A stretch of 42,407 nucleotides of DNA from Plicaturopsis crispa FD-325 SS-3 (Eukaryota; Basidiomycota; Agaricomycetes; Amylocorticiales; Amylocorticiaceae), in assembly GCA_000827205.1 (NCBI GenBank), contig KN832556.1, forward strand, positions 795,325 through 837,731. Reading direction: 5' to 3'. Made by a program: the position numbers and the translations under genes. Below the pieces are notes generated by a model, which had not been told where the DNA came from, searched no databases, and was given only the letters and a program-made list of their open reading frames with translations. Below, in pieces: positions 677-42,023 of the stretch (positions are counted from its first letter, which is position 1; each line of letters opens with the position of its first letter).

Positions 677-687
677 TTTAATGTTGT

Positions 688-6600: not shown

Positions 6601-8748
6601 ATAGGATTCTAGACTTTCATAATCGATTTCTAAATCAGCATAATCCATATGATTTAACTTCAGCCACTCTAGCGCATCCGACACCTTTCTTCTGCGCACT
6701 AATAAAGGCGTCCGTTTGAAATCCTCGGTGACATCGATCTTTGGGCCGGTGAATATTATTGCGAGTACATCGTCTATTTCATCTATCGGCGGTGGTAGTT
6801 TATGATATATTTTGGCGGTGGGTACACCCACCATAACTGTGTTTGCCACCATCTTTCTCATCCCGGACGAAACTTTGCTTACAAACTTACTGTGGCGGAC
6901 TCTGGCTACTAGCAACTTTTCAGCGAAAGACAGGTCTTTCAACTGTTCTGGAATCTCACCGATCCATAGTCCGTTTGCTAAAGCATGTTTAGGTAACTTC
7001 CCACCTTTCAAAGATTTAGAACAACCGACGCAAACTTTGTCTGTCCCTGGCAGCCGCACATCGCCTCTCACGTTGCGAATCGCATCATTGGTACTGACAC
7101 GTTCTCTCCTAGTCACTCCACTTACACGCAATGCCCCTGTAGCCAGGTCGACATCATTCACACTTGACAACATGTGTAACGGAGTCAGTCGAGCGCATAC
7201 TGTGCACGCTCCCTCTTCAAGGGCTTTCAGATCGTTGCAAAATTCATGCACCATTCGTTGCTGTAGCTCCTTGGTGGGAGGCAAAGGAGGGAAACAATGT
7301 TTGGTGCGTTTAACTTTGGTTTGAATCTTATTGTACTTTGCTGTTCCCCGCCCGAGCGGCGTTGTTCTGTTGCGTTCGACAGACCGAGCCACGGTTTGCT
7401 TGTTCTTCCATGCACTAAATCTCTCTCCCGCAGTGCGAACAATATTCGACTCGAACACAGACACGTGTACCTTACAATCTGTACAATCGTGGAAGTCGAT
7501 CGCCTTTAAGTATGCAGCTTTATTAGATCGTGCCTTGACCCTTATATCATGCTTGTCGGCCACTAATTTCAGTCCCGCTAGGTTCAGCTTCGAAGTCAAA
7601 GCATGTAAATCCATCGCACATGTGATATACCGAGCGTCGTCGTATTCGGGTATGTCAGATAACAAGCGATGGTCCCTAAACGTGAACGACATATTGTCGT
7701 TCAATTGGGAATTAGACATCGGGTGCCATTTCTTCAACTCATTGCTCGTAAAAACAGTCCCAGCTCCACCTACCGGTTGGTGCATGTCATCCGTAAATGG
7801 CGCGTGTACATGCGCCTTTCGCGCACCGAACGAAACACCGGCGGACGGCGAATACGCATCAAAATAATTTCGATAACGGTGAAAATAAATTGCGTTGTCT
7901 GTGTCGAGAGTGGTCATCGATTCTCTGTGCAGTAATACACTGTATTGCCCTTTTCTCATGAAATGCCTTGTGACTTGTAGACGTGCTAGTATGGACACCC
8001 ACCGAACATTGCAGTACCTATCGTTGACTTGTACAAATATGCCGATCCAGATATTCATAGTCGGCGCAAGTCTCATGTGTACGAGCGAACGATATCCCAC
8101 ACATTTCGACATCATGCTTTTCCAGCGTTCACGTATCCGGTCTACAAATTGTACAACATTCGCTCGTACACCACTTATATACTTTCTGGAGTTATACTCT
8201 GTATCGCATCTGTACGGCCACTCCATCGAGTTCGCAATGCCATGAAGTTCATGTGGAAGTAACGTAGCGCTGTGCAGCTGATGGCTAGTGTTTGTGATGC
8301 TGGCCATCTCATAAGTTTTTGTAGGGGCGCTGTGCAGCCATTCGTGTATGTGTTCGGCGCCGTGCAGCCATGTGTTTGTATGTTCGGCGCTGAGCAGCCA
8401 TTTGGGTTTAAGTCCGGCGCTGAGCAGGCCACAGTTTTCTCCGCAGCGCACGGAACCTGTAGCGTTCCCCTGGTTGTGCGACTGGAGAATCCGCCACTTT
8501 GCGGTGTTCTGGATGCATATGTGACGTGTCAACCCAGTTGTGGTATTGTCGTCAAGGAACAAGTCTATCGCCGTAGTTTTTGAGGGCGGTAACGCGGGAT
8601 CTGCATGCCGTATCGGAACGCAGATGAACGCTCCCAGCACGACAGCATGAAGTAGAGTTATGAAGCGCATAAGTGCTATTCCCCGAATCGACACTGTAGT
8701 ATGTTGAAGCAAAAGACAAACCACACAAGCGCATTTCAACACGCGCAT
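688..8748 (-). CDS. Helitron Rep/helicase with C-terminal USP-like domain
   Basis: One uninterrupted frame of 2,686 codons from the ATG at 8,748. It encodes the rolling-circle transposition protein of a Helitron. In order: a variable N-terminus with a 10-residue tandem repeat (about 108-177); a cysteine-containing region with a C-x2-C and the segment ALANGLWIGEIPEQL (about 580-600), typical of DUF6570-like Helitron N-termini; a Helitron_like_N/Rep region with the HUH residues H1051 and H1053 (LTLHLHMLLW) and the paired tyrosines Y1256/Y1260 (YISDYITK); a PIF1-type SF1 helicase with Walker A GGTGKS at 1802-1807, Walker B FFDEVSML, GDFAQLPP and LRENMRQ; and a C-terminal papain-fold domain with Cys2432 (DYSCAYDAL), two C-x2-C pairs and His2632 (GDFHFTARI ... 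WYYDG), the pattern of ubiquitin-specific proteases. The first ~50 residues are hydrophobic and the true start may lie further in. No stop codons or lost motifs: it looks recently active. Confidence 0.93.
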   Translation of the reverse strand: MRVLKCACVVCLLLQHTTVSIRGIALMRFITLLHAVVLGAFICVPIRHADPALPPSKTTAIDLFLDDNTTTGLTRHICIQNTAKWRILQSHNQGNATGSVRCGENCGLLSAGLKPKWLLSAEHTNTWLHGAEHIHEWLHSAPTKTYEMASITNTSHQLHSATLLPHELHGIANSMEWPYRCDTEYNSRKYISGVRANVVQFVDRIRERWKSMMSKCVGYRSLVHMRLAPTMNIWIGIFVQVNDRYCNVRWVSILARLQVTRHFMRKGQYSVLLHRESMTTLDTDNAIYFHRYRNYFDAYSPSAGVSFGARKAHVHAPFTDDMHQPVGGAGTVFTSNELKKWHPMSNSQLNDNMSFTFRDHRLLSDIPEYDDARYITCAMDLHALTSKLNLAGLKLVADKHDIRVKARSNKAAYLKAIDFHDCTDCKVHVSVFESNIVRTAGERFSAWKNKQTVARSVERNRTTPLGRGTAKYNKIQTKVKRTKHCFPPLPPTKELQQRMVHEFCNDLKALEEGACTVCARLTPLHMLSSVNDVDLATGALRVSGVTRRERVSTNDAIRNVRGDVRLPGTDKVCVGCSKSLKGGKLPKHALANGLWIGEIPEQLKDLSFAEKLLVARVRHSKFVSKVSSGMRKMVANTVMVGVPTAKIYHKLPPPIDEIDDVLAIIFTGPKIDVTEDFKRTPLLVRRRKVSDALEWLKLNHMDYADLEIDYESLESYPENEPPVVVDYRKSETNKTTEGASVQDTEPEDGTEDGPCPFIVHGITGDELSDKNIGQKKAIAMKHLNNQGKILLVGSNEKPESMYNNPQLYPQMYPWLFPYGLGGLGNPNSTVKISEIEHKRHLLMYHDKRFQRDSTFPFLAFNHEQIKGSTTGGFLLTKRHSFDDIANRLLNIDHVVMKDMADRLIREEHVKPETREEKECYQLIHDLDHVGHHVQGSTTNKKYMRKEVWSLISYRGAPTWYITLSPADTRSPLCLYFAETNETFRPELVKSDAAKRNYEITHNPVAAARYFHYMIEMFIKHVLGVGTDHAGLYGDTSAYYGAVEQQGRLTLHLHMLLWIRGGLSPQDIRDKLLDENSEFQKKMVEYLESVHSGEFATGSRDDVRVSVNTASSEPAYRDPTLTLPAQPPMPCIGKCESDCPNCAVSKIWWDKYPHIVDDLLSKSNMHDCTGHERGQMYKGKIAEYNGCRANKWGKCRARFPREVFESTMIDPETGALNMKKGEPNMNTFTPLVTYLFRSNTDVTNLLSGTAIKAVVAYISDYITKPSLKTYSIFETIRGVFLKNSEMIGGTLERKEKARKLMTQIVNALTRKSEMGGPMVCMYLMGFPDHYTNHKFVPFYWESFVREARRPWVGELESENDKVVLNKQKGKLVGLTNVHDYIYRPPEYSGMNLYDWISRYERKRRPREKKQLLADMDDDCEDDELNIVDQSDSPAPEPADDTKPFGGDDFRQGDKKWAVEAFAQEDSNEHFESEYESDSDRDELDTGFDDPANHPVHYKPSANSFLKGHPLYATHMARCAKEKHARVPNFLGAPLPRVDRGDREYYCSTMLTFFKPWRNGKDLRPESQTWDSAFTGHNFTDVQVATMNHFNVKYECLDARDDYSAQMKLGKGNGGFFTQWDAGESHDVDQDLEDMTNTGDSAFDDELVHAQEELGPSSTDRERKRAEIERVLEASGWTGASTNGLPDISLNPVIPQKNRTGREWQQAVQDTRDAEAANRMKDLPDSKNERGETKKHFDGVKVVDKSYLNKDFQAELEAAQSNIDGTVKQFKLNKEQERAFRIVANHTTCKDTDEQLKMYLGGMGGTGKSQVIKALMSFFDKQNEPHRFMCLAPTGSAAALLNGSTYHSVLGVNEKMSMVSDNNIANVRTKIQGVDYIFFDEVSMLSCRDMYRISSQLARATNNVDKPFGGMNMIFAGDFAQLPPVPSGPGSSSLYSAGVGTHHTAGNGIAEQEACIGKALWHQVTTVVILRENMRQKSQTPDDEKLRTALENMRYKDCTQDDINFLITRIAGTLPGSPRLADKQFRNSAIITGINVHKDRINELGCERFAADTNQKLTHFYSKDELEDTNTVGSTKRRGRPKKKTAGVRHSNVIDENLQNIIWNLPPYCTKTIAGKLSLCMGMPVLIKHNDATELGITNGQEATVAGWTWSLGPHRKKVLETLFVRLDHPPKAVQIDGLPVNVVPMVPTTDSKVPCMLPNDTMITLSRSQVRVLPNFAMTDYASQGKTRIYNPVDLLNCRSHMSYYTALSRSASAAGTIIVQGFSRSVIQGGASGWLRQEFRELELLDDITQLRHNNLLDPSVDGHRRNTLLRQFQILKGTEYVPVNVHRSIKWTRERPMKMVDLVTDSPWQLIEPDSKKPKPQKSVVQYVKAKGSTATVHTTSNPDNAVVGKRKRDEKDSFKKTVKKKTNQTSAQPLSNAPVGIIWDAVDYSCAYDALYTILYNVWSTNIPKWHDIFSDLNDHIEVLSHAFQHVKEHKMSLEEARDVVRLRLANENPEEFPNARAGTSIGDLTVAMLMSDSVMSESKLICDTCGHEIDSGQNRMHYTTHIPGNANTRRLSDWLRKAMYAKSRQLCSLCASPMHRRTVFTSTPHLLAFNLYNCDTNPAKIIRVPTEDKEITLRLRGVIYHGDFHFTARIITRDGRLWYYDGATTGGTSLLEGFIDNISEHELRRCKGRRISMALYARK
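8218..8427 (-). repeat. 30-bp tandem repeat coding 10-aa units
   Basis: Seven consecutive 30-bp units in frame inside the Helitron gene. They encode the decapeptides LLSAGLKPKW, LLSAEHTNTW, LHGAEHIHEW, LHSAPTKTYE, MASITNTSHQ, LHSATLLPHE and LHGIANSMEW. The four units nearest 8,427 share the core GGCGC(T/C)G(T/A)GCAGCC at exact 30-bp spacing; the others are more diverged. Confidence 0.85.
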
Positions 8749-8799
8749 CACGTGATCTTTTAGTATCCGCGATACGGCGCACCCGTGAGAATTTGTTGC

Positions 8800-8839
8800 G
8801 GCGGCGATTGCGCCACGTGTAAACTCATCGTCGCCCTAG
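8800..8839. other. Inverted repeat ending in CTAG-T
   Basis: GGCGGCGAT (8,800-8,808) and ATCGTCGCC (8,827-8,835) form a 9-bp stem with one mismatch, directly followed by CTAG (8,836-8,839) and T. Helitron 3' ends are a hairpin followed by CTRR inserted before T. The orientation, however, is opposite to what the minus-strand helicase gene requires, so it may be unrelated. Confidence 0.3.
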
Positions 8840-8884
8840 TTTTGACCATCCGCTCTGAGTGCGTTTAGGTATAGCACGCCCTCA

Positions 8885-10846
8885 ATGTCAACCACGACTC
8901 CCTTCGCTTGGGTAGCGACCGATTACACTCGCCATACAAGCACCAAGCTCGTAAACCTCAGTAACAAAAGGTCTATCCCAGCAGGTAAACGGATGGACGG
9001 ACTTTCGGACTACGAGCGTACAACTTTCTCTACGGCCACCAAGAAGGATGGGTCCGCAGCAGAATTAGAAGAGTGGGTCACAGGGCCTGGAAGAGACTAT
9101 GTGAGTTCAGGTATACGGCATCACCCGTGGGTACGACGCTTACATACCCGCAGGCATGTGCCCGTTGCTCTGGATATCCGCAGCCTTGTATGGTTTCGAT
9201 GAAAAAGGCAGGATGTACGCAGTGCGAATCGTTGAAACGAGGATGCAGTCGCGTTCAGGCTTTCCGAGAATGGCGCACGCGTAGATGGATGGACCAGGCT
9301 GACGGATGGAGAGATCGCGGAGGATCTCACCTTTTTGAACAGGTCCTCGATGACCTGTACGCCACGTTGAGGGCATCGCGAGGCGGTGACAGCCAGAATT
9401 ACGATCGCTCAGCTTTGGACGGTGTCGACAAGGGAGCCGGCCATGATTCACGCGCACACGCTCACAGTCATCGGATGCCGAAGAGGAAGAGGGGCACCCT
9501 CGACGTGATACCACAGCCTAAAAGTGATTGCACTAGCGACGGGCCTGATTCCTTAGAGGGTAAATCTCATCGTGAGGTCATGTCCCGTAAAAAACGTAGA
9601 GTGGTTGTCCTAGTGCCCCCCATCCGGCGTAGAGTTGCAGGTGTAGATGAGGTGCGCGGACTTCCACTCGATACCGTCCCGTACTCAAAAATCGAACAGC
9701 GCCCGTCCGCCGAACCCCTCGGTACATATAGGTCCCCTTCCCTGCTAGAACTCAGTCACAACGTTACCCCCGGTTCTCCTGCTGAACGCGACCACATAGT
9801 CCAATCTTCCTCCACGAATGAATCGGAAATCGATGACTCCGGCTCGTTAGAGTCCGCAGATGACCCCCACGTCAACCTACCCGGTGACATCCCCAATCTG
9901 TCGACCCCCCTGCTTACACCTGCCGTATTTTCAATCGGATCAATCACCAACAACAGCTCCGAGACTGAACCATCCGAAAGAGCAAGCCCCGTTTCTCCGT
10001 CGTCCGTCCTAACCGGATCCTCCGTTGGTCGTGCCTCGCTCGTGCCAACTCCGACCGGTGAATACAGTCAAACCGCCGGAGACACATTGCTCGTCGATAC
10101 ACGTAGCTCGTCTGATGCTCATCTGGAAGCGGACCGTGCACGTCGACGTGCCGAGATCGCAGAGCGCAGGATTCTGGCATGGGAGGCCGTGGTAGCTGAT
10201 CGCGACGAGCAGATAGCCCGACTGGGACAGTCTAATCGGGAGAACACCGAGCGGTTGGCTCGCTTGGATACCACAGCGCGTGCTCTGAGACAACGTAACG
10301 ACGAGCTTGTAGCCGAATTAGCCTCGGCTCGCCAAACATGCGCCGAACAAACGTCGCTCATGACGACGCTCCTGGATCAAATAGCGCACCACGGTGAGCT
10401 CGCTAGTCGATACGATCGCCTCCAGGAGGAGCTGCGCGATATCGCAAAAGAGTCATCTTCGTACAAGATACGATGCACCGACTTGCTCAGGGAGAACAAA
10501 GAGTTGCATGCACGCGCAGAGTGCATTCATCCTCTTTCGTATGGCGACTTAGAGCAAGGGGGTGCGTGGCTTACACAGAACACGCGCGTATGTCTACGAT
10601 CACTTACTAGTACCATCTCAAGGCGACGATACTTCGAGCCGTTTGACGGATTTCATCGGGCGCACAATGGTGTCGAGGCTGTCCAGAGCACACGTCCAAC
10701 TACACGACATAGTGGACGAGAATCCTCTCCTGCCCAAAGACATCTCCGTTCGTCTCGTAACACTGGCAGCGGCGATGCGGAAGACCTGCACCGAAGCGAC
10801 GGCATACTCTGCTTTGTGTACCGGTCAAGGGAATTGTGCGTGGTAA
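8885..10846 (+). CDS. Zn2Cys6 coiled-coil protein, paralog 1
   Basis: Three exons, 8,885-9,100, 9,154-10,561 and 10,611-10,846, give 619 residues. Intron 1 (53 bp) is phase 0 and intron 2 (49 bp) phase 1, both as in the other four paralogs. Residues 1-72 are the family's N-terminal box ending in GPGRDY. The cluster follows at once: C74, C77, C84, C93, C96 and C103 with spacing 2-6-8-2-6, then FREWRTRRW. This is the spacing range of fungal Zn(II)2Cys6 DNA-binding domains. Basic stretches (KRKRG, SRKKRR) suit nuclear import. A long Ser/Pro-rich linker leads to a heptad-rich coiled coil at about 397-528. The last exon encodes a small helical domain (DISVRLVTLAAAM). The second exon's frame also runs on open to 11,004, but splicing joins it to the conserved C-terminus. 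It starts just beyond the Helitron 5' region. Probable transcription factor or chromatin regulator; target unknown. Confidence 0.8.
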
Positions 10847-12028
10847 CGACTTCATTGTTAATCTTTTGTACCAATAGCATACGCGTTCGGCATCCAATAC
10901 TTGTATATAATAATGCATGCATTCATCTCTCATGCAGAATAGAGAATAAGGCGAGCAAAAAACCATGGATCTGCCAAGGCGTCCGGCGTCTGCGGATACC
11001 GTAGGTATCCGCAAAGGCGGCAAGATCCTCATTGACGGCAGGTATCCTCAGTGGGAGCCGGTATCCGCAATCACAACAGGCATATGCAATGGCTGCAAGC
11101 ATCACAGTGGCATTAGGTATCCGCAATCGCCGCAACTATCCGCAGTCGCCGCAGAGATCCGCAGTCGCCGCAGGTATCCGCAATCGCCGTAGGTATCCGC
11201 AGTCACGCAATTATTCGCAGTCGCCGTAGGTATCCGCAATCGTCGTAGGTATCCGCAATCGCGGCCGTTATCCGCATTCGCAGCGGGTATCCGTCATCCC
11301 ACGCAGTCGCGGCAGGTATCCGCAGTCGCCGCAGTCGCCGCAGGTATCCGCAATCGCCGTAGTTATCCGCAGTCACGCAATTATTCGCAGTCGCCGTAGG
11401 TATCCGCAATCGTCGTAGGTATCCGCAATCGCGGCCATTATCCGCATACGCAGCGGGTATCCGTCATCCCACGCCGTATCCGCAAGCGGTGTCAGAAATA
11501 GTAGCCGTATCAGGTAACCGTGCTTCACATGACTATCCGCCATCAAAGTATGACGTCATCTTTCGTCAAACCATTCTCACAGACCGCTACATGACGCCAT
11601 AATTTAGTCATGTGACTTCGAACTGAGCGCGGATGGGTTATGCCCGCATATGATTCATTGCATTGTTGCCTCATCGATATAATTAAAGGTGCCCATTATG
11701 ACCATGAGTAAGTGCACAACTGCTGTACCGGGACAATACAAATGTGCCTCTGTGTACGACACACAGTGTGCTATAAGTCATTAGTCTATAATAATCAGCA
11801 CAAAATTTGCTGGTGCTAAGTGGCGCATCCGTGAACCGTGGGAATCGCGACTTTGCGCGTTTGCGGCCGCTCTGCGGATGCGCCAGCAAGCATAATCTTC
11901 CACTTTCTTCAAGTCAGGAGTGATCACCCTTATTCTACGCAACAAGTATCTTTCTCGTATGTTTTCGTACCTATCTTTCGTCTGTGTCTTGTCGCATAAA
12001 ATCTGATACTTCTTCTGACAACAGAAAC
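10847..12028. repeat. TATCCGCA array between paralogs 1 and 2
   Basis: No gene. From about 10,980 to 11,510 the DNA is a dense array of TATCCGCA words separated by CAATCGCCGTAGG-like and CAGTCGCCG-like spacers. A 132-bp block at 11,173-11,304 recurs at 11,343-11,474 (170-bp offset) with few changes, so the array grew by segmental duplication. The frames in it are repeat translations. TGACGTCA lies at 11,551-11,558. The remainder up to the ATG of paralog 2 is probably promoter. Confidence 0.85.
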
Positions 12029-14715
12029 ATGTCGCACCGACCTGCAACAGCTAGTGAACACTGGACAGCAGACGACCTCGAATCACACAAGTTGATAAAA
12101 ATGCCGGCGGCGAAGACCGTCGTAAAAGGCACACCTCACTCGGACATAAACGAAGACGATCGCGCCGAGTTTCGTAATCTCGTCAATGCTGAAAAGACCG
12201 CCGAGGACATCAAACTGTTCAACGAGACGGACGGTCGACGAGTGGTAAGTGCGCGCTCAATGAATCCGTATTACGCTCTCAAAGATTTACGATAGGCTTG
12301 CAAAAATTGCGTATCGCTGCGCAAGCGGTGCGAAATCTTCCCCAGTCGCTTGCTCTGCAAGAATTGCACCAGTAGAAAGACCGGCTGCTCCAGAATCGGG
12401 AGCTTCTTAGAATGGAGGATCAAGAGAGGCATGAATCGGTCACCCAGCCTCAGCGCTCTGGGCGGCTTTTCGCGATACGAGTATTTTCTCAGCGACTACT
12501 TGGCGGAGAAGGCGGCTAGGCAGAAATCTGATAAAACTCTCGAAGACGACCAGCAGGCTCCAATCAATCCGGACGGCCCTCGCGACGACGATAAGTCACC
12601 GAAAAAACGGAAATTGACGCACAACATCGTATTTGAGCCCAGCCCAGACAAGTCGACGCTTCCGACTTTAAAGATAAAGCTGTTCAAGGTGACATTGACG
12701 CCCCCTCGCTCCGTACGACACACTTGCTGACGTATACCAATGCTTATAAGGGGGCACATCCTAATCAGGCCGAGCCTGTGGAAAAGTCGTCGCCCGTTCA
12801 TAAGGATCAGCCTGTCATTGAGGAGTCCAGCGCTCCAGAGACTACCGTACGAAAGAGCCAGACTGCGGCGACCCCTGTTCAGGTAGTTCATTCCGTTCAG
12901 CCGGCTGCGGGCGCACATAGCGCTCCGACTGTCGAAACGGGCCCCACCGTTGCCCCTCATACGCCTGATCGAGACGAAGATCGTTGTCAGAAAGCCAAGC
13001 AGGATAGTCACGTCCTTGACAGTGGGCCCCTCGCGCGCAAGCGTAAACGACATGTAGATGGTGCGGCGGAACTAGTGTCCGTCACCCCGACTCAGTCTCC
13101 CATCAAGATCGGTCCCCCCAAGGTATACGCGATCTTCAACTCTCTCGTCGGCACTGTACTGACACTATTATATAGGGCGTGGCGAAAGAAGGCGCCTCGA
13201 CGATCTCGCGCTCTCGCGTTGCCGCTGAGTCCTCGAAACTTATCGAAGAATTACGTCAACGCGAAAGACTCTCTACTGAGAGAGCCAACGCTCTCGATCA
13301 ACTGAACATCGATCTCAACATCCACTCCGTATCGGTTACATCTCAACTGGAAGCGGCGAACATCGAGATTGCTAGACTGCAACGACGTCTTGAAGAGCAA
13401 GAACAGACGTTCCAGCAGGCCCTGGACACCTCCAACAAACTTTGTGCAGACGCCGATCTCGCTCGCTCGACATCGGCGACGGACTTATCGCTTTTACGCA
13501 TTTCCCATGATGACCTGGTGAAGAGCTCAAGCACCGCGCATGCCAAACACTTGGATACCGAACGCGAACTACGCGATCAGCTAGCGCTTGAAACGCAGTT
13601 ACGTGTTGGCCTAGAGTCGCAGCTAGGTGTAGCCCCCGTAGCCTCAACTCGCACGGACGAACCCGCCGTGGATCCCAGAGCCCTGACAGCCGCGCTTGCA
13701 CGTATCCAGGAACTAGAGGCGTCTATGTCGCGCCATCATCATGCGGAACAACCGGAGGTCAACCCTGCGTCGAATACATCATCGTCCAGCGACAACGGAC
13801 CAATTACCCAAGAACGAGCGCGCGCTTTACAATTGGCCAACACAGCTCTACGAGGAGAACTGGCACTCCTCCGTCGCCGCGCCGAAGAAGGAGACCAGCA
13901 GCGTCTCAACCTTGTCGAGGAGGCTCTAACTGCCCGCGAGGAGGCACGCGCGAATATCGAACTGAAGGAGAGTCAGCTGGAAGTCGCTGAGCGTCGGATC
14001 AAGAAAACCAAAAGCACCATCGCTGACCTCGAGGCCATGGTCGTTCGGTTCAATCCTCCGCGGCCCACCAACCCGAAATCTTGCGTCGACAAGGGCACGC
14101 AAGCTGATGGTCAACAAGACGATCACGATGCGGGAGTCACGCCACCGGTGGTAGACACCAATGCCGTGAACGAAGTGGTGCGACTCTCTGAGGAAGTTGC
14201 GCAATATGCTCGCATTGTCGCGTACGAGCGTGCACGCAATCGGGACCTGCAGTTGCTGCATCATCGTACGGAGGTCACAATGGGCCAGATGAGAGACGTC
14301 GCCCTTGGACCGATTGCGACCGATGAAGACGGTAATGTATTGCCAGCATCAACAATCGTTCGATCTGCCGAGGTTCTCCGCGTACAAGCGGATGTGCAAG
14401 GTAAGGAACATATCTTTATTTACTTCCGCATATTGATCGCTACTTTCAGACCTAATGTCGGAAGATGTACAAGAGGACCACACCGAGTGTTCCCGCATCA
14501 TCAGCGAGGCGTCCACCAACTTCAGCGCGTGCAATGAACATGTGAAGGATCTGATGCATTACATGCACAACAAGCAGGAGCATACCACCCGAATGAAAAT
14601 CCTCGCGGATCGGCTCCAGACTCTGTCCAGCAAATTTTTGCGCCATTCGATGAATATCGGAGGGTTAGAAGGATGGGGGCCGGAGGACCTTTACAAGAAG
14701 CCCGATAGCGCATAA
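12029..14715 (+). CDS. Zn2Cys6 coiled-coil protein, paralog 2
   Basis: Five exons: 12,029-12,244, 12,296-12,688, 12,751-13,122, 13,176-14,400 and 14,450-14,715; 823 residues. Introns are 49-62 bp, three of phase 0 and the last of phase 1. N-terminal box 1-72 (HSDINEDDRAEF ... DGRRV), then cysteines 74, 77, 84, 93, 96 and 103 and the motif FLEWRIKRG, where the first R of FREWR is L. A basic patch KKRKLTH is a likely nuclear localisation signal. The fourth exon encodes an extended coiled coil (about 336-615) with a second helical stretch before the C-terminal domain. It is the longest paralog. The second intron could alternatively end at 12,768, also in phase; a CTGAC branch site favours 12,750. 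Probable DNA-binding dimeric regulator; no recognisable activation domain. Confidence 0.8.
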
Positions 14716-15867
14716 GCTCAGTCCACTTTGTCATATCACACGCATACTGGTGCAGACATTCTTACAATACGACGAGCCTTGTTATTTTCGAAAGTTGATC
14801 ACTGGTGACTATGTATCTATCGACTAAAGAATCCCCGTCGCAGCCGTAGGATAAAGTAAGTCACTCACAAGCGAATATGTGCAATATTGCGGACTAGACC
14901 GTCGGCGAGGGGTATACGCCGAGGGGTATACCGCAGGTCATCCCCTCAGAGTTATTCCCACTTAACCCAATATATACTTGCAGCAGCAGCAGGGTTCGCC
15001 CAACTTACCCTTCGCGCGTCATGCGGATGCCACTCTGAAAATATACCCTATCATCATGTTGCACAGCAAGTATTAAATGTAAAATGGCGCAGATACTCGT
15101 TTCGGGACGATCATTGCGGATACTGTGGTCCGATTGTATTATCATTCTGTTGATACGCACTCATGGATTTGCTGTTCGCAAGATCGCTAGGGGGTGTAAC
15201 CGCAATAACTATCCGCAGAGAGGTATCCGCCAACCGGTAACCGCCAAGTCTCGTTAGCCTACAGGGAGTATCAGCGCAGACACTCGTATATGTGCCCGCG
15301 AGGTTTATGGTCGTATCTGATATGATAACGGATGTCATTTAAATCCGGTGGACTGACTTTGTTAGAAAGGTATGGATGGCCGCGGATACAATCGAATGTA
15401 AAATGTAATGCGATTCCTCGCTGCGAAGGCTGTATCGCAATCAATGAATCACAATTGGGTTGGCGTGATCGATTACCCGCAGAATGCGACATGACGATGG
15501 CTGCGAGCGCGTTAACGACATCCGCAAAAGTCTACGCTAGAAACCCGCAACAGCCACGATCCTCACAAGCTGGCGTCACCAACTCCAAGTCGTTCACTCG
15601 AAAACAGCCGGCCCATTTTCATGTGAATAAGTTCAATATTGAAAATCGTAAAGGCCTTATAGGACACAGCCCAATCTGGTGGCTAACAATGATACTAACG
15701 ATGCGCTCCAGTCGTTGAGTTCCTGCGCCGGCACGGTAACGCCAGCGATCATGGTAAGCGCCCACATTGACGTAATGGGAAGAAGCAGTCGGACTTCGCG
15801 TGTGCTTCTTCGATGTCTCATATTCAATGTTATCGCCCTCCGATACCATCTAGTTAGTCTCATAGTC
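14716..15867. promoter_or_regulatory. Spacer and promoter of paralog 3
   Basis: No supported gene. It holds a GAGGGGTATAC duplication near 14,905-14,935 and scattered TATCCGC words near 15,210-15,230. An open frame continues upstream of the ATG at 15,868, but it does not resemble the N-terminal box of the paralogs and is taken as leader. Confidence 0.5.
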
Positions 15868-17470
15868 ATGCCCAAACCGCCTAGGGACTACGGTCCAATC
15901 TCGATCGCCCGCGACCTGGACACGACAGACAAGCTTGTTCTTACCACCCGACTGACTGTTCGACGCGGCGCCATACACGACGAGATATCTGATGACCATC
16001 GCGAAGAGTTCAAGCACGCCGCCCGCGCGCGCAAAACCTGGGATTTCGATGAATGGACTAAACAGGGGGGTAAAAATGTTGTAAGTACTACGCCATACGC
16101 TTCCATGTGTGTATAAGCGGTTGACAGTGTGAACAAGGCGTGCAGTACCTGCAAGAAAGACGAAGTCGACTGCGAGGTATACGCGCGCTTCGTGACCTGC
16201 GTACGCTGCCTGAAGCATAAACGCACGTGCTCGCGTCCGTCGGTATTTCGAGAATGGAGGGCACGACGGCTCCTGGACACACCCGCGTTCGCGCGTTATG
16301 GTGGATCAGCTGTCGCATTCGATATGTTTCTCGAGGACCTGCATGAGACGCAGCGGATGTCGAAGCAGAAGAAGAGGATTAAGAACACTCCAAACTCCAA
16401 AAAGAAGGGCAAGGGCATTATTATCATCGAGAGCGACAGCGGAGACGACGAATATACGGAACACTACGACGAAGAAGAGGTCGATCAGCAGGAGGAATTT
16501 CTTGCTAGGGCGGAAAAAATCGTTCAGGATCCTAACGACATCGAAATCGACGAGTTGGACGACGACGAACCAGATCAAGACGCTCATCTTTCGGAAGTCG
16601 CGGACACGAGCGGCGAAGGCTCGAATCAAGAGTACAGCAATGTGAGCCTTCGCCTTTCTACGTAATAGATGTGTATTCCTCTAACCTCCAGCAGTGTAGA
16701 CCCGAGGACTTGGAATTTAAGTTCGACTTGTCACCGTTTCCTGAAGCGTACAAAGTATCACCCGATACCGCCAATCCCTTCAGCGTAAGCGCTTCTAACA
16801 CAGCACGCTCCGAGATTCACACAGCATTCAAGTCGGACTCTCCGCTCACCGATACCATACCGGGAAAAAGCACTACTTTCCACCATTCGAGTCGATCTCC
16901 CATCGACCCCATGGACGATGTAAGCTTCTATTGTCATGACACTATCCCATCAATGAATCACAACACGCCGACGAAATCGCAGATTCAACCAGAGTACAAG
17001 GAAAATCCAGCGAGTAAGTATGCTGACAATTTCGTTGACTAGAACCGGCGCTGACACTTATTTTGAGCAGCGTCCCCCTATAAACCCGCGTTGGTGGAAG
17101 AAAACAACATACTCAGGGCCCAGAATGCCGCGCTCGAGACGCGATGCGGAAATATTCAAAGTGAACTGGCCTGTAAGTGACCCGCATTGACATGTTCGAC
17201 TAGTCCATGCTTACTGGTTATCCGAATATGCCAGTACACGAGAAGGATTCCCGTCAAATCATTGATGATCTGGCGCGAGCTCTGGCTACATCATCGATGC
17301 AGTTGTCGAGCTCAGCTGATACATTGAAAGAAATTGCGGGCAATCCGACGAACGAATTTGACAGGACGACACGCGACAAATTGCAAGCTGCAGCCGCGGA
17401 ACTGGTCCAACGTCATAGGGAAACCCGCGATGTGATGATTGCTCACAATATCCTCGACCGGCTAGGCTAA
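15868..17470 (+). CDS. Zn2Cys6 protein with SIM-like motif, paralog 3
   Basis: Exons 15,868-16,080, 16,138-16,641, 16,692-17,013, 17,071-17,172 and 17,235-17,470 give 458 residues. The N-terminal box (SIARDLDTTDKLVL ... GGKNV, 1-71) is closest to that of the next gene. Cysteines 73, 76, 83, 92, 95 and 102 keep the family spacing, followed by FREWRARRLL and a GGSAVAF ... FLEDLHET segment. Then comes KKGKGIIIIESDSGDDE: four isoleucines followed by an acidic, serine-rich run, the form of a SUMO-interacting motif. A strongly acidic tract follows. The coiled coil is reduced to about 30 residues near 347-375. The last intron is phase 1, as in the other members. This is the shortest paralog, mainly through loss of coiled coil. 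Confidence 0.8.
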
Positions 17471-17892
17471 AAACATACGCACGAATCACGATTGGGTACA
17501 TCGAGTAGGCGACTGGCCGTTAATACATATACTTCTCATCAGCACGTCTTAGGTTGTAAGAGGTATTATCGCCGCGGAAGCCGGAATCCATGGACTACTA
17601 GCAAACGATTATGGTAGATACAGCTCTACAGCGCGTTCCATAACGGCCTAGGGATGTTATGCTCCTACTTTCGTTGATTATGTTACATTATTGTGCCCGA
17701 ATCGTTCGTTAAGCGCCCAGCGGTCGTGAGAATTCGTATCGCATACGGTTACTCGAACCCGCACGAGTTGCATTTGTTCGTCTTAACTATCCTCTACATA
17801 TCGTATACCTGAAAATTGGTCAGTGGTTATATAATCGTGCCAAGGCACCACATTAACAGACAGTAACTGTATGAAGATACCATTGTCCAATC
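17471..17892. promoter_or_regulatory. Spacer between paralogs 3 and 4
   Basis: No gene. It is the shortest spacer of the array and must hold both the 3' end of paralog 3 and the promoter of paralog 4. I see no TATCCGCA cluster here, unlike most other spacers of the array. Confidence 0.45.
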
Positions 17893-19872
17893 ATGTCTGC
17901 CAGAGAAACTGTCATTCCCAGTCACTTTGGTACAACCTCCATCGCAAGCGATCTGGACACCACAGAACATATAACGCTGTCCACGCGGTTCGCGATAATG
18001 ACCGGTCGCATTCACAATGACATATCGGACGCACAGCGCCTCGATTTCAGAAAAGCTGCGCGCGGCACGAATTCGGATGGAATCGAACGATGGCATAAAG
18101 AAGGCGGTAGAAACGTCGTAAGTTTACCGAAATGTGTACACCACCCCGTGTCTAACACTTATACACTAAGGCATGTTCTTCGTGTAAACAAGCGCGACAA
18201 TCGTGCGAGGTGTTCGCCCATCGTCTATCCTGCGTGAGATGTTACACGGGAGGACGTACTTGCAGTCGCACTCGAGTCTTCCGAGAATGGAGATCGAGAC
18301 GATTACTCGATTCCGAGCCGTATTCACAGCATGGCGGATCGAAAGTGGCGTTCCCGAAATTTTTAGAGGATATGCACGAAACCATCCGGCTCGAGAAGTT
18401 GCCAGACGGAGTTCACGTCAACGGAACGCCAAGTCCAGTGATACCACGCAAACGCACGGCGCGATATGTTGGCCATGACGTAGACTTGAACGTGACCGAA
18501 GCAGTCGAAGTCGATGAAGATACGCGCGCAGAGGAGACGGAAGTCACTGCCCGCCTCCTCTTTCAGGACGATGACATCGACGAGCTGTCCATTATCGGCG
18601 AGCCACCGGTAAGTCATATTCCCGCCAGTCCGACGATATCATAGCAATAACCATGTATTCAGTCCAAACGATCAAGAAACAAGCCGGTCATTACACCGTC
18701 GGCGTCTACGCAACCTGACGTGGACGAAGATCTGAAAGCAGTACGTGATTATACGTCAGAGCAGCCTCGCCATACTTAACGGAAACACAGCTAGATGAAA
18801 ATACATTCGAAACAATTTCAGGTGCAACCGAACGGAGGAAAGAGGGTCCCGGCACGTCTACAAAAGCGGCTGAAAATTCCAGCCACGGAAGAAGTCTACC
18901 ACCGGACGTACATGGCTCCCAATCCCCCCCACCGTCAACTACAGCTGAGGACGGAAAGGTTCTTCCTCGAGATATCGCAAACCCGCCTACACCGTCGTAC
19001 GACCCCGATCAAAGCGCGTCCCGCAACTACAGGCTGGCTCTGGAAGAAAACATACAGCGTCTCGAGCGAGTAAACACGAATTTGTCACTCCGAGTATCGT
19101 ATCTTCAGGATTCTCTCCAACACGCCAGGACGGAGCTCTCGACCAAAGCACGAGACCACGATCAACAGCTGGCGGATATACGCACCGAGAAAGACGACCA
19201 GATTGCGTGCGCAGGCAAAGAAATTGCCGAGTTAACAAACCGCGCAGCCGCCCTCGAGCATACTTTGGCTCGACTAGAGCAAGCCACAGACTCGCCCGCA
19301 CATGTCGAAGAACATGTCATCGTCAAGATCAAGACCCATCTGGATACCATAACGTCGCAGGACCGTGTCATAGATCGACTGCTGAACCATGTTGATGCAC
19401 TCACAAACGATCGAAACGCTTTGAATGAATGTGAGCTAAATAAGCCTAAAAACACATATTTACCCTAACGTCTCACGGCTCCGTAGCCCGCGAAAACGAA
19501 CGGCTCAGGCACGCGCGATTGCTCGAGGAGTACAAGACACAATGCGAAGGATTGGAAGAAAGAGTTCGCGGTATGTAATGCAATACAGTCCGGTATGCCC
19601 TTACTCGCTGACCCTCTCTGTTCAAAGTGGTGGAAAAGGATGCAAAAGACCGCCATTCACGTCACACAGGTCATCTTTCGGCCGCCTGCCTTCAGTTCTC
19701 TCGGGCGGAGGACGACATACTAGATGTCTTAGCGTCGCTTGACATCGGAACACAGCACGGTCGGGCCCTCAAGGACGCGGCGGACAAACTGCACGAATAT
19801 CACAGCCGTACTCGAGCGCTAGCCATGACACCGTATACAGATAACATTACCCGCGACGACGCGCGCTTCTAG
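17893..19872 (+). CDS. Zn2Cys6 coiled-coil protein, paralog 4
   Basis: Six exons: 17,893-18,117, 18,171-18,608, 18,663-18,740, 18,791-19,430, 19,487-19,570 and 19,628-19,872; 569 residues with phase kept throughout. The N-terminal box 1-75 (SIASDLDTTEHITL ... GGRNV) pairs it with paralog 3, suggesting these two are the most recent duplicates. Cysteines are 77, 80, 87, 96, 99 and 106, then FREWRSRRLL and GGSKVAF ... FLEDMHET. Basic patches PRKRTARY and KRSRNK may direct nuclear import. The coiled coil spans about 327-440 and continues over a phase-1 intron into the small fifth exon. The C-terminal domain contains ALKDAADKLHEYH, comparable to the end of paralog 3. Most of the fourth exon has no ATG near its start and is only found by following splice phase. 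Confidence 0.8.
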
Positions 19873-20470
19873 CTATTTTTTTCGTTGTACCCGACGGTTA
19901 CTATATGGAGTGGCCCATAAACGATAATTCCATCGCAGTCACCAGTCATTGTCGACATCACCTGTACCCAGTAGTCCTTATGTATACTGGTAAGGTGAAA
20001 GAATTCGCAACCACTGGTAGAACGCCAAAGTCGTGCCATCAATCAACTTCAAGACTATCCGCGATGGATTGAATAGACGAGGGCGTATCTGTAAGTTCTT
20101 TCGAAATCAAAGAGCATTTGGGAACAATATACGTATCGCTCACTACCGTGTGGCCGCGTATCGCTACGTGCATCACTACCATGGTAAGATAACGGGGACG
20201 CCACGCTAATACCTACAATAACCAATGTTAATAAGCACACCACCGATACAGATTCGCGTACCCATGTCGACTTCGCCATACACAGGTATATGCATCCTCC
20301 CTCCATCGTCAAAGTCGCACGTTCGAAAATTCGACTCTGACGATCCACTTGCGTAGCCTGCAAGCTGGTCTATAAATTGTCGGGAGAAACAACGTTAAAT
20401 TCTACATACCGGATTTTTGGACAACAATTTCCTTCAAGCTATACACAATGACGTCATGCATTCCATCCTG
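19873..20470. other. Spacer without supported gene
   Basis: No convincing gene. Several short open stretches end at good donor-like GTAAGT words (near 20,090 and 20,180), so a small or decayed gene cannot be excluded. TGACGTCA lies at 20,449-20,456. Confidence 0.4.
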
Positions 20471-20870
20471 CTCAAATTCCGCGATGAGACAAAAGGAGCA
20501 ACTTAGGCCAGATATGGTTGCTCCTTACAATGGGCTTGTGCAACCTTCTGGTGTCCGATATCCTCATGCTAACATGCAGCATGTCCTGATCCGGTGCCGA
20601 GCCAGCCTCAGGTCGGGCAAATATGGCATCGCCAGGGTAAAAATTCATGGTATCTGTTCAAGTGTCAGTACCATCGGATCATCGGGACGTCAATGAACAC
20701 TCGCCGACTAGCTTGTGAATTTCATGCAGTTGCAAAACCGGGACACCGCGGTCCGGGTTAAAAATGTATACATACGCGGTTCCATCTCCGATTTGGACAG
20801 GATGACCCTGCACTTTAAAGAGAGACAGTCGCGACAATCTAGAGAAATCCGATTCACTGAGATCTGTCAT
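20471..20870 (-). pseudogene. Fragment related to dioxygenase gene N-terminus
   Basis: A first exon from the ATG at 20,870 encodes a segment with GTAYVYIF, and after an intron-like interval (20,654-20,700) a second segment reads YPGDAIFARPEAGS. The gene at 25,102 carries GKSYVYLA and then TEGDAIFARDMHGS, also separated by an intron, so this is a diverged copy of its N-terminal module. The splice phase needed to join the two pieces does not work with the visible donor, and nothing resembling the rest of that gene follows. I therefore read it as a truncated, probably dead copy. Its ATG is about 140 bp from the SET gene start on the other strand, a head-to-head arrangement. Confidence 0.5.
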
Positions 20871-21009
20871 GATTGAGGGAGTAGGTGCGGCAGTACGGGC
20901 GTACGGGTGTACAATCAAAAATTCGGCCGTTTTCCGAATTCCGACCCGCGCGTGGTCATTGGCATGCGGTACGGCTCCAAGTCAGCCAGTTGTTCTTCCC
21001 AACTCCACT

Positions 21010-22220
21010 ATGTCGACCCGTCGCAAGAAGGCGTCGAGCAAGGCGCACAAAATCAAGATATATGCCAACAAGCTAACGGGAGCCCAGTTATTATCGGATG
21101 ATGTATTGGCGACAGATCCTATCGTCGTTCATGCTATATACGCACGGCGCGCTAAAAAGAGTGTTCATCGCTCACACTCGCCCTTGACAGTGTCTCAAAC
21201 TTTTCAATCGGATGACCAGCTGGCGAACAGGCTGTATGAACTGTTTCAACGGTCTCAGAGTACCTGGTCCTCATCTACGGGCAGAACGATCGCGGATGTC
21301 ATACTGGCAGAATACCCCGGCCATCTACCGGAGCGGAGACGCTCGGCTTTGTCCTGGTACGCTGTATTGATAAGGCATACAGGAAGGGCACTAACGTGTA
21401 CGCGTGACAGGGAAATATCTGCCTACCGACAAATGCTCGACCCTTTCAGCGCCGTCAAACTGCGCGTTGTCCGGATGGAAGATCGTATGCAATTCACGGT
21501 CGTCGCGCGGCGAGATATCGTGAAGGGAGAGGAATTATGGGAGCTGCTGGGTATCATGCCTATCGATGCCAATGGTCTCAACTCTCAGGTATCAGAAATG
21601 GCACCTCGCATCGGGGACAGACCGCGCGCACTCATCGGCCCCCTGCGATTTATCAACCACAGATGCCGGAGTTTCAATTGCGAGGTACACTATTTATGTT
21701 CACATATGGCCTACCGACATTAACCTTCACAGTTTACGCGCGTGAGAGGCACGAACGCTGTAATACCTACTGTTACAAAGCACATCGTCTGCAATGAAGA
21801 GTTGCAAGTCGATTATGGAGAAGGATATTTTGACGACGTACCCGGCGGTTGTCCGTGTTCGGACTCTACCTGCATACAAACACGGTCAAGCTATACGATA
21901 TCATCAAGCCCGTATTACAAGGGTAAGTAAGACTGTAGGTGCATGCACCACGCGTATGATGTCACCTGATTCAAACCCGCAGAGGACACGAACCCGCCCC
22001 GGACATCATCAAATACTGCAGCATTGACAAAGAACCAGCGGCGCAGCAGTGCGAGCAAGCAACGGAAGAACGCATCGCACAAAGCCAAGCGGAAATCCGT
22101 AAGTGCTCGATCCGTATAAGTCAACCGCGATGACCGACTGTTATACAGAAAATATACGAACACGCAGAGGCCTTGCAACCTGGTAAATCGGCCGATATGG
22201 GCTTATCGGAAATTTCCTGA
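21010..22220 (+). CDS. SET-domain methyltransferase-like protein
   Basis: Four exons: 21,010-21,684, 21,733-21,922, 21,983-22,098 and 22,149-22,220; 350 residues. SET domains transfer methyl groups from S-adenosylmethionine to protein lysines, usually in histones. The conserved core is at the exon 1/2 junction: RFINHRCRSFNCE with N216, H217 and C224, then ELQVDYGEGYF around 249-258, matching the SET NHxCxxNC and ELxxDYG motifs. A post-SET-like C-x-C-x4-C (CPCSDSTC) follows. The C-terminal tail is basic (KQRKNASHKAKRKS). An in-frame ATG at 20,869 is possible, but the start MSTRRKKASS at 21,010 avoids overlap with the divergent fragment. It interrupts the Zn2Cys6 array on the same strand, and its stop is 274 bp before paralog 5. 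The substrate cannot be told from the sequence. Confidence 0.8.
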
Positions 22221-22494
22221 TGCGTGCATTGATTCAAAGTGCGGTTGAGGAGATGCGGATATAAAGGTGTGTGCGGGGGTAAGAGTGGGGCACATCGGCG
22301 CAGCACATAGCATGTAGCACATGGTTATATCTTAGTAGAAATCACACACCTTGCGTTTATCCAGTATCAGCGTCCGAACAGGGGCTGTATCCGCAAACGG
22401 CATCCGCACGGCGGACAGCCACAAGACTATCCGCGTGCGAAAGTTCGTACTTCGGCCGTCTCACAGTAACCCTCCCATACGCACTTATCTGAAC
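22221..22494. promoter_or_regulatory. Promoter region of paralog 5
   Basis: Short spacer with a cluster of CCGC words at 22,385-22,435 (GTATCCGCAAACGG, GCATCCGCACGG, CTATCCGCG), shortly before the ATG at 22,495. The position fits a proximal regulatory element. Confidence 0.5.
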
Positions 22495-24533
22495 ATGAAC
22501 GACCGCCCCCCTCGCCGCTCTGTAGCGAAAATGCAGACACAAGTTCAAACATGGAAAGCTGTCGACTTTGATGCATACAAGACTCTGAGTCTGGGCAGCC
22601 CTACAGTCAAACCCGCGCGCCACGATGATATCACCTCTGAAGTCCGAGAACTGTTTCACCTGTGGACCAAGAAGACGAGATGGGAGAACGTCAATGAATA
22701 TAATTTAGGGGAAGGACGCCAGGTGGTGAGTCCCTTTCAGTTTCGATAATCACGGTGATCGATATGACAGGAATCATTTCAGGGCTGTCATAAATGCGAC
22801 CTGAACAAAGAGGAATGCGTCATCGACCGCAACGATATTACATGCGAGAACTGCGAAGAGGGGGGTTATCAATGCACACGAACGTTGAATTTCCGCGAAT
22901 GGAACATCCGCAACATGATGGGCCAGTCCGAATTGTTCAAGCCCTTTGGCGGTTCCGCCAGATTCCGCGACTTCCTAGCGGATCTGTACGCCGAAGAGCT
23001 TGCATCCTGGCCTCAGGGTAAACGATATGCTGTGCCTGTCCCCAGACCAGCTGGAAACAAACGTAAGGCTTCGACGGAGAGGAGACCATCATCCGTCAAC
23101 ACCGACTCTCGCAACGAGCCAGGCTCTGTCCAAGACAAAGTAAGTAACGGGTACGAATTTACTCGTGTCACATAGACTGACAGATAATGACCTGTAGAGG
23201 ACGCGTATAACATCTCCTGCCTCTCCAGTACATCAACTCGTACCCGACGCGCTCGTGTCGAACGAAGGCGTACCCAAAAGTCCATCTGGAGACCAGGGAC
23301 CCGCTAATCAGTTTCTTCCGGCCTCTACCGACGCGGCAACGCCAACAGCGAACTACCAAACCTCCACATCTGCCACCACTCCTCGCGCGAAACTGACTTC
23401 AGAAACTCTTATACAGGATCTCCGAGTACGACAGCGCGAGGCCACGGAATTGGCACACCGCGTCGAGCAGGAGAACTTGGATCTGCAAGTAAAACTGAAC
23501 GCCGACCACGTGAAGCTCGAGGAGACGGAACGCAAACTGAACACCGACCACGCGAAGCTCGATGAGACGGAACGCAAACTGAAGGATGTCGAGCAGCAGT
23601 GTGCGGCATTGCGACAGGAAAACCAGGAGCTGGTACGGAAGAACAAGGAAATCGTAGCATCGCAGTCCCTCGAGGGCGACGCCGTAGAGAGGGCTACCCC
23701 AACTCGCGATGCGCAGTCGAAACGGAAATCAACCCGCACAAAGGCCGACCTATTCGAAGAGAACGCCATCCTCATTGCAAACACTGCAAAGAGTGCGTCC
23801 ACACAGGAGAAGTTGGAAAAGCAGATCGAGGAGTTGGAGTCTCTCAATCGTTCGCTGAGTAGCACGCATGCTCAGCCACAAGACGGTAACGTCCCCGCCT
23901 CGACAGTTGACCAAGACACAGCGCTACATTCGCGTATTGCGTCGCTGGAAGAGAAGATAGAGCAGGACGAGGCAACCTCGACGCGCCGGATGGGCGAGCT
24001 TCTGAGCGAAGTCGCGGTCCTCAGACAGAAGGCGATCGATAACAGGCGTCTCAAACTATCGCTAGAAGACACTATACGCGATCTTCGTGAGGAATCGCGC
24101 GTTCTGAAGGTAGCCGTCGGGCCCTCATTTTTCAAGACGGAACAAGAATATCAGGAGGCGAAGTTGAATCTCTCGCGCGTTGCCAAATGTACGTCGAGCA
24201 ATATGTTTTATATTTCGATATGTTTACGATACGCTTGCAGTGGAGCACATAGACGAACTCACTCAGATGCGCACGCGATTGGGCTCGCATCTATGCGGTG
24301 CGGCCCTCGTATGCACGCACGCCGCCACAGAGCTGCAACGCTGCCATGATCAGTATATGCAGGACAAGGACGAGGACGCGCTGTCGCGCACACTTCGGAA
24401 AATAGCATCGACTCTCCTAGATTCCAACACCCGGATGGTACAAGAGGCGGGGTCGTGGACGGATATAGACGAAGTAGGGTTCGATGCGGCAAAGGCAGGT
24501 GCAATGAGGGCGGTTGATCAATACTACGTGTAA
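22495..24533 (+). CDS. Zn2Cys6 coiled-coil protein, paralog 5
   Basis: Four exons: 22,495-22,725, 22,783-23,139, 23,198-24,188 and 24,241-24,533; 623 residues. The N-terminal box 1-77 (HDDITSEVRELF ... GEGRQV) is followed by the phase-0 intron and cysteines 79, 82, 89, 98, 101 and 108 in the family spacing, then FREWNIRNMM and GGSARF ... FLADLYAEE. KRKAS is a short basic patch. The third exon is nearly all coiled coil (about 263-523), including the duplicated 14-residue units KLNADHVKLEETER and KLNTDHAKLDETER. The phase-1 intron precedes the C-terminal domain (RKIASTLLDSN). Probable dimeric DNA-binding regulator like its paralogs; it is the most acidic of them in the finger region (NKEE, CEEGG). 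Confidence 0.8.
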
Positions 24534-25101
24534 AAGCGATTGATATCTGAGGCATGCCAAAGCAACCAATTTATTGTTCAAGCTACCTTTTATAACACCA
24601 ACGCAATGATACCGAAGGTTACTACACATGCCTTGACATCGACCCGATACGTAATGCACTAATCGCCACAGAAAGCCCTTGCGGACAATATCCCGCATAT
24701 ATCGACAGTAGATGGTGCCAGTCCAGGGTATCCGCAGATCATAGGGTATCCGCGGATCACAGACTATCCGCAGATCAAGGAGTATCCGCACTCTATCGGC
24801 AGAAAGGGTATCCGCATCAAATCACTGACGTCACCATTCGACAAAACCAGTAGGTTTGACTCGTAGGTTATCCGCAGATCACAGGGTATCCGCAGTCACA
24901 TAGTATCCGCAGAGCATTGGGTATCCGCACTCTATCGGCAGTTAGGGTATCCGCATCAATTCACTGACGTCATCATGCAACAAAACTAGTTGGTAGGACT
25001 CGTATTGACGTCATCGATATTGGCACGTGACTTTTTCCATGTCTGCGGCCGGACTAAGTTGAACATCTTCCTTCTACAACTATCCACAGCAACTTACTCT
25101 C
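24534..25101. repeat. 140-bp duplicated TATCCGCA/CRE promoter block
   Basis: No gene. A unit beginning GGTATCCGCAGATCA at 24,727 recurs 140 bp later, at about 24,867. Each unit has four or five TATCCGC words, the phrase CACTCTATCGGCAG, and TGACGTCA (24,826-24,833 and 24,965-24,972). A third TGACGTCA is at 25,006-25,013. The block ends about 90 bp before the ATG of the dioxygenase-like gene, so it probably acts as its promoter. Confidence 0.75.
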
Positions 25102-26665: not shown

Positions 26666-26738
26666 TCGAAGGGTCCAGAACAGAGACAACATTGGAACAT
26701 GTACACACGCCAACTACGCTCGTGACGGACACAATATC

Positions 26739-29700: not shown

Positions 29701-29854
29701 ACAGGAAGTGCGGGATGCGCTGCGTGCACTGTTCCAATTCCTACAGGAAAACTTGGATCTAGAGGAGCAGACGCAGATGATTTTCGACATCATCATGCTG
29801 GAGCATGCACTTTGCAAGTATGTTAGATGTGTACAGAAGCATCTGACATGGTGA
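26739..29854 (+). CDS. Large unrecognised protein downstream of dioxygenase
   Basis: Four exons: 26,739-27,249, 27,306-27,404, 27,458-27,940 and 27,987-29,854; 986 residues, phase kept. I do not recognise the family. The N-terminus has a hydrophobic stretch (LLNFLVRAFLYLVLYFFL), which may be a membrane segment or may instead mean that the true start lies downstream. A middle region is basic and low-complexity (KKGKARETSKTKRKAS, EKRIRLDD), followed by an acidic tract. The last exon encodes about 620 residues of apparently globular, mixed sequence without repeats (for example WLEVKVYDACEAYL, GLLLDEVWLAFRF, NLVFRGITFHSNFLLDGG). It starts 73 bp after the dioxygenase-like gene on the same strand, so the two could be co-regulated or even one transcription unit. 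No frameshift or internal stop is seen. Confidence 0.68.
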
Positions 29855-34653: not shown

Positions 34654-34736
34654 AATGAAGACACCAGAAGGTACTGAGAAGCGTACGAGGTGACGAGACA
34701 GAAATCGCACAAGGTATATCACAAATGTCGGCCGAG

Positions 34737-34744
34737 TATTTATA
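34737..34744 (-). promoter_or_regulatory. TATA box of the AT-hook gene
   Basis: TATAAATA on the minus strand, 84-91 bp upstream of the ATG at 34,653: a plausible core promoter position. Confidence 0.5.
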
Positions 34745-42018: not shown

Positions 42019-42023
42019 AATAA

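Follow-up and report, generated by a model that had tools for sequence, protein, structure and literature searches.

Why should five closely similar genes for putative DNA-binding proteins stand in a row? The question is raised by a 42,407-nucleotide stretch of the basidiomycete Plicaturopsis crispa FD-325 SS-3 (the window; contig KN832556.1, here called C3, C3:795325-837731), which was analysed against the 33.2-Mb assembly of 49 contigs from which it comes. A preliminary description of the letters alone had read it as a tandem array of paralogs with a Zn2Cys6-type finger. The five paralogs (g1 to g5) are indeed in a row, but their setting had been missed: they almost certainly lie inside a Helitron2/Helentron-type element, a rolling-circle transposon of some 41 kb. 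Service to the element is therefore the first function to consider for them. In the reading favoured here, to which we give a probability of roughly 0.55, the Zn2Cys6-like proteins encoded by the element would act on that same element by way of CGG-containing octamer repeats, in a manner analogous to that of the VANC proteins of plants.

The finger genes and the element around them

The splice sites of g1 to g5 (Table 1) were picked by eye for GT-AG borders and a kept frame, and the exon models are predictions from the sequence. They give complete frames in all five cases, of 619, 817, 458, 569 and 623 amino acids (AA), a coherence that is partly by construction. The first exon encodes 72, 72, 71, 75 and 77 AA, respectively, and ends at a phase-0 intron immediately 5' of the finger; each finger has the spacing C-x2-C-x6-C-x8-C-x2-C-x6-C with FREW or FLEW thereafter, and the last intron is in phase 1, in five of five genes. 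This bears out what had been claimed beforehand -- five same-strand genes with an N-terminal box of 71-77 residues, a phase-0 intron before the finger, invariant cysteines, an F(R/L)EW motif and a phase-1 last intron -- and at the level of predicted gene models the five genes are confirmed as real. The coiled coil ascribed to all of them was found by a crude heptad test in four of the proteins but not in g5; coiled-coil families of Pfam match g1 and g4, with scores below their cut-offs.

The limits of the element come from its flanks. The window begins within a dispersed host repeat, and among 17 other partial copies of that repeat listed, similarity ends at position 620 in 11 and at 619 in one. 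In a copy on contig C9 the repeat runs on, and its continuation matches the right flank of the window; with two further uninterrupted sites on C24 and one on C25, the insertion point is found unoccupied four times. All of the DNA from 621 to about 42,054 is therefore extra DNA at one site, the right limit being uncertain by one or two A/T bases. The ends of the element are TACGAG and CAAG. Copies of its final 52 bp occur at 15 further places in the genome, and its 5' end region has 24 matches, 23 of them besides the window's own. An asymmetric inverted repeat of 13 bp, ACGAGTCCTTAGT, has one copy 1-2 nucleotides (nt) from the 5' end, according to the limit chosen, and the other at 36 nt from the 3' end; the hairpin near the latter end, read by eye, has one wobble and one bulge. 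In all three elements that were aligned a T follows the 3' end, with no target duplication, though the exact number of shared Ts is ambiguous. The RepHel gene is intact, and its stop codon begins 70 nt from the 3' end. RepHel matches Helitron_like_N (119.9 bits) and PIF1 (82.3 bits) in Pfam, and has an HUH-like HLHML motif, a YxxxY-type YISDYITK and the Walker A sequence GMGGTGKS. No endonuclease family, including AP endonuclease, is among its Pfam matches at an expect value (E) of 0.01, and the ends of classical Helitron1 elements (5' TC and 3' CTRR, with A/T insertion) are absent.

For Helitron2/Helentron elements, PMC4067079 gives, in its values for a mite, inverted repeats of 12-15 bp, the distance to the 5' end being 2-4 nt and that to the 3' end 38-60 nt; it also gives a 3' palindrome 8-35 nt from the end and a T-rich target without duplication. 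The element has in common with this group, and with the non-autonomous Helentron-associated interspersed elements (HINEs) treated in the same source, a RepHel, asymmetric subterminal inverted repeats, a 3' hairpin, a T-flanked site without duplication and non-coding copies that bear repeats; its repeat-to-end distances are slightly outside the mite ranges. It is unlike those described there in its length of 41.4 kb, its intron-bearing cargo and its lack of an AP endonuclease match, a lack that fits Helitron2 rather than Helentron. The HELPO Helitrons of Pleurotus, another basidiomycete, also hold genes of unknown function beside RepHel, but they span 1.5-13.7 kb, hold one to four captured genes and have ends of the TC/CTRR type at AT sites (PMC4289320).

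Elsewhere a 3' and a 5' end of this family stand in the same orientation 30.7 kb apart at C6:1837559-1868276 and 49.7 kb apart at C10:1266299-1316014; each pair may mark a further giant element or may consist of unrelated ends. The C6 stretch has, in its first 10 kb, the 3' end, two copies of the octamer TATCCGCA (see below) and then unrelated frames, one of which we take to resemble a KDZ-type transposase. The C-terminus of the window's RepHel (688-1465), in which Pfam has no match, contains DYSCAYD with later H and D residues, and presumably resembles a papain-like deubiquitinase domain.

The finger proteins as a family

A genome search with the finger led to 16 places: five on C3, three each on C44 and C40, two each on C24 and C25, and one on C30. 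All 16 have the box, six cysteines and an intron that directly precedes the finger, a pattern beyond chance, and 14 have the strict cysteine spacing, the deviating copies being C44_b and C40_5; the copy at C24:229916 loses its frame shortly after the finger. A second query returned the same 16 along with a partial match with an internal stop (C2:3582409) and a weak one (C18:165383, E 0.03). Since the architecture is shared at 16 places, the family comprises 16 members or more, rather than five. Eight of them (L005, L007, L008 and L012-L016) are outside the C3 and C44 blocks; C40 is a contig of 12.7 kb, and the other outside members are no more than about 33 kb from the end of their contig. A subtelomeric setting was considered and rejected: TTAGGGTTAGGG is absent from the pieces examined, and none of 26 matches to a longer run is on C24, C30, C40 or C44. 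A single-protein scan of viral_contigs showed no relative of the family.

In a Pfam scan of the five spliced proteins no family was above its cut-off, and none of the five has a fungal_trans match at E 0.1, in agreement with the earlier claim of a distinct architecture lacking that domain. The cut-off of Zn_clus (PF00172) is reached by none of the five finger exons of the window; among the 16 copies, five match at E 1 or less, the best with 20.8 bits against a cut-off of 21, a narrow miss that falls to a C44 copy. In two copies the second half of Zn_clus aligns to the first half of the finger, for which an altered order of the halves was considered, but in g5 the weak match follows the usual order. 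The structure prediction proposed for the finger and the FREWR segment gave a good model (predicted local distance difference test, pLDDT, 89). A Foldseek comparison of that model with the PDB returned 22 rows, of which 21 are Zn2Cys6 regulators and one is the CBF3 complex, which we take to contain a cluster of the same type. All of these rows are weak, with E at least 0.12, and a profile search of the finger against the PDB gave no match.

The finger is very probably a zinc cluster, and the products of g1 to g5, which would be expected to bind zinc, are Zn2Cys6-like proteins: they share the conserved box at the N-terminus, the finger is followed by a helical segment, and most have a coiled coil as well. 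They are like the Zn2Cys6 regulators (Gal4, Ppr1, Hap1 and others) in the spacing of the six cysteines, in having a coiled coil in most cases and in the fold predicted for some 31 residues at the start. Unlike those regulators, they have the finger behind a conserved box of 71-77 AA and a helical extension with F(R/L)EW and GG, and they show no fungal_trans match and a Pfam finger score below the cut-off.

The related block on C44 and the octamer repeats

In inverted orientation, contig C44 (27.9 kb) corresponds gene by gene to the window from 2.4 to 34 kb, though deeply diverged from it, and has RepHel, the finger genes, a SET-domain gene and the genes here called X and Y in the same order; the relative of a MYND-finger gene occupies a different place in the row. 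The 800-residue core of RepHel is 77% identical to that of C44, as against 24-44%, over parts of its length, for the other matches listed. Across the gene pairs of C3 and C44 the proportion of synonymous differences (pS) is 0.61-0.86, near or at saturation, while that of nonsynonymous differences (pN) is 0.19 for RepHel (pS 0.86), 0.22 for X (pS 0.73), 0.34 for SET, 0.35 for Y and 0.30-0.46 for the finger exons. Collinearity together with low pN at such high pS argues that the block has long been kept together and coding in both copies, with amino-acid change held back. In a tree of box plus finger, g1, g3/g4 and g5 pair in order with the three C44 genes; full support is found on 3 of its 13 inner branches, and g2 forms a long branch. 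The C44 block is probably another copy of such an element. A reading of C44 as a mating-type locus or allele was rejected: Homeobox_KN matches are on C2 (two) and C11 (one) and STE3 matches on C19 and C21, with no tie to this locus.

In the window the octamer TATCCGCA is present 37 times, where 1.4 would be expected, and 36 of these are outside the gene spans checked; within the element 29 stand in three arrays and 8 elsewhere, the latter again against 1.4 expected. C44 has no TATCCGCA but 26 copies of GACCCGCA (1.3 expected), 16 of them in two palindromic arrays and 10 elsewhere (also against 1.3); the element in the window holds five GACCCGCA. Both C44 arrays are at positions matching those of the element, in the spacer that separates the first finger gene from its neighbour and immediately beyond Y, and the middle TATCCGCA array has no counterpart on C44. 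As background, 91.7 kb of C24, C25, C30 and C40 contain four TATCCGCA and one GACCCGCA. The palindrome TGACGTCA is found six times (1.1 expected), at window positions 11551, 20449, 24826, 24965, 25006 and 39642, several of which adjoin octamer arrays; the C44 arrays flank TGACATCA/TGATGTCA.

Genome-wide there are 103 GGTATCCGCA, as against 36 for the reversed word. Among the 100 sites listed, 23 belong to the element, 16 lie on the inner side of another 3' end and no more than 3 kb from it, where 0.1 would be expected, and 61 are elsewhere; the 3 kb on the outer side of the ends hold none. Such an inner site is present at seven of the 15 other 3' ends and absent from eight. Two non-coding copies are complete: A (C3:773474-776327, with a gap of 1242 bases) and C1e (C1:3804315-3805820). 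By BLAST they have only the two ends in common with the element (52 bp and 277-279 aligned columns), and they contain 30 and 11 TATCCGC, respectively, all in one orientation.

What the cargo may do

The CGG triplet is the usual half-site of Zn2Cys6 proteins. With several likely DNA binders encoded here, and CGG repeats both in the spacers and in non-coding kin, the simplest reading is that one acts on the other. The finger proteins of the cargo would bind TGCGGATA, the octamer that contains CGG (TATCCGCA when read on the opposite strand), a step to which, taken by itself, we give even odds. Binding would activate the element and its kin, release them from silencing or aid them in some other way, and the repeats in non-coding relatives would then be targets of the element-encoded proteins as well. 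The C44 octamer TGCGGGTC, with two arrays in place, would reflect protein and site changing together. The pairing of protein to site is inferred, as is the effect of binding. De-silencing would be the first choice of effect, given the SET and MYND genes in this element and the TET/JBP genes on other fungal transposons. More tentatively, and somewhat short of an even chance, the giant element may carry a whole multi-gene regulatory kit that acts on itself and its kin, the proteins and repeats having co-changed in two lineages.

Three known systems invite comparison. The VANC proteins of the VANDAL transposons of Arabidopsis are likewise a transposon-encoded family (PMC5735166, PMC10398659), and the VANDAL motif, present as tandem repeats in non-coding regions, varies by two bases or more from one related element to another (PMC5735166); the octamers of the window and C44 are also non-coding repeats that differ between related elements. 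VANDAL elements are, however, not rolling-circle, and the binding and demethylation that have been shown for them we only infer here; the likeness is in mode of working, not in membership. TnpA of En/Spm is an element protein that binds repeated sites kept in non-autonomous copies, though En/Spm is a cut-and-paste CACTA element, while the window element has its repeats internally too, beside cargo genes (PMC2613891). The fungal transposons with TET/JBP genes, Helitron2 included, carry a chromatin-related gene that is thought to counter silencing (PMC12730594); the window element has no TET/JBP match.

The finger genes could, on the other hand, be captured host regulators that still act on host genes, the octamers being ordinary minisatellites to which nothing binds. 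Half of the 16 family copies are outside C3 and C44, as such passive or host-serving cargo might be, and both microsatellites or tandem repeats in Helentron relatives (PMC4067079) and captured genes of unknown function in Pleurotus Helitrons (PMC4289320) are familiar. This is unlikely, given that the octamer is enriched beyond its arrays in both elements (8 vs 1.4 and 10 vs 1.3), that two arrays are positionally kept although the word differs by two bases, and that gene order is retained under constraint. Less probable again is the use of the repeats by RepHel, X or Y, for instance as sites of replication or strand transfer, with the finger proteins doing something else: the repeats do accompany the termini in non-coding copies, as movement sites would, and RepHel, X and Y are better conserved than the finger genes, but the word has changed between the blocks while RepHel is the most conserved of all (pN 0.19), and a CGG core best fits a zinc cluster.

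That the Helitron merely adjoins a normal host locus -- regulators multiplied in tandem, or a non-recombining locus or highly diverged allele whose other haplotype is C44 -- is very improbable. The introns are host-like, the family forms tandem clusters elsewhere, and the sequenced strain may hold two haplotypes; yet both ends of one element flank the block, its site is uninterrupted four times, RepHel is placed and oriented alike on C44, Y is in two copies (C3 and C44), and neither the Homeobox_KN nor the STE3 matches fall on C3 or C44. Hardly credible at all is a nested composite in which a small Helitron-type element later received the gene block as a separate insertion: small elements with the same ends exist and the empty sites show only that there is extra DNA between the ends, but the RepHel stop is 70 nt from the 3' end and the RepHel-finger-SET-X-Y order is common to C44.

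A 2019 review gives lengths of up to 14 kb for fungal Helitrons and up to 39 kb for those of maize, and describes the capture of full-length host genes as "exceptionally rare" (PMC6431247). A fungal element of 41.4 kb, with intron-bearing genes that have retained their order under constraint in two lineages, widens the known cargo of Helitrons; searches of open-access papers listed no comparable element. Should the finger proteins bind the repeats, this would be a rolling-circle counterpart of plant VANC, down to the two-base difference in site, and would suggest where unusual zinc-cluster families of fungi come from.

Table 1. Features of the window, by position
Feature	Position	Strand	Remarks
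Host repeat, left flank	1..620		dispersed repeat holding the insertion
Helitron2/Helentron-type element, 41.4 kb (probable class)	621..42054	- (RepHel strand)	termini; uninterrupted sites on C9, C24 (2), C25
3' terminus	621..672	-	hairpin 13 nt from end; recurs in genome; aligned with two copies
Asymmetric inverted repeat ACGAGTCCTTAGT, inner copy	657..669	+	36 nt from 3' end
RepHel frame	688..8835	-	2715 codons stop to stop; DUF6570, Helitron_like_N, PIF1; start codon not fixed
g1, Zn2Cys6-like gene	8885..10846	+	3 exons
TATCCGCA array, g1-g2 spacer	10991..11484	+	17 octamers, first on minus strand
g2, Zn2Cys6-like gene	12029..14715	+	5 exons
g3, Zn2Cys6-like gene	15868..17470	+	5 exons
g4, Zn2Cys6-like gene	17893..19872	+	6 exons
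SET-domain gene	21011..22221, approximate	+	PF00856, 23.6 bits (cut-off 22.4); C44 counterpart
Two TATCCGCA, just upstream of g5	22254..22395		opposite orientation
g5, Zn2Cys6-like gene	22495..24533	+	4 exons
TATCCGCA array	24729..24955	+	9 octamers
Gene X	25209..27254, approximate	+	several exons; conserved with C44
Gene Y, main exon	27983..29854	+	C44 counterpart 49% identical
TATCCGCA repeats, just after Y	30018..30279	-	4 octamers
Gene W	31316..32468, approximate	-	C44 counterpart
MYND-finger gene	36935..37710, approximate	-	PF01753, 26.9 bits (cut-off 22.7); C44 counterpart
Second MYND-type gene copy	40248..41257, approximate	-	repeat D2/D4; PF01753, 14.7 bits, below cut-off
Asymmetric inverted repeat ACGAGTCCTTAGT, outer copy	42041..42053	-	at 5' terminus
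Right flank, host repeat continued	42055..42093		92% to uninterrupted C9 copy

Among the remaining cargo genes, W has a counterpart on C44, and Y has two copies in the genome, those on C3 and C44, with no third. Gene X has no Pfam match. Between 26223 and 26618 it has an HxD...H...R pattern that is kept between the element and C44 and that we take to resemble that of 2-oxoglutarate (2OG) dioxygenases; X as a 2OG/TET-like dioxygenase was rejected, given the Pfam result, only three weak and unrelated PDB matches, and a model with a pLDDT of 35 that is unusable. The SET gene and the core of X each have, in addition to their C3 and C44 copies, a partial relative of 40% identity, on C12 and C9 respectively, that of X lying at C9:1271861-1272235 (G000).

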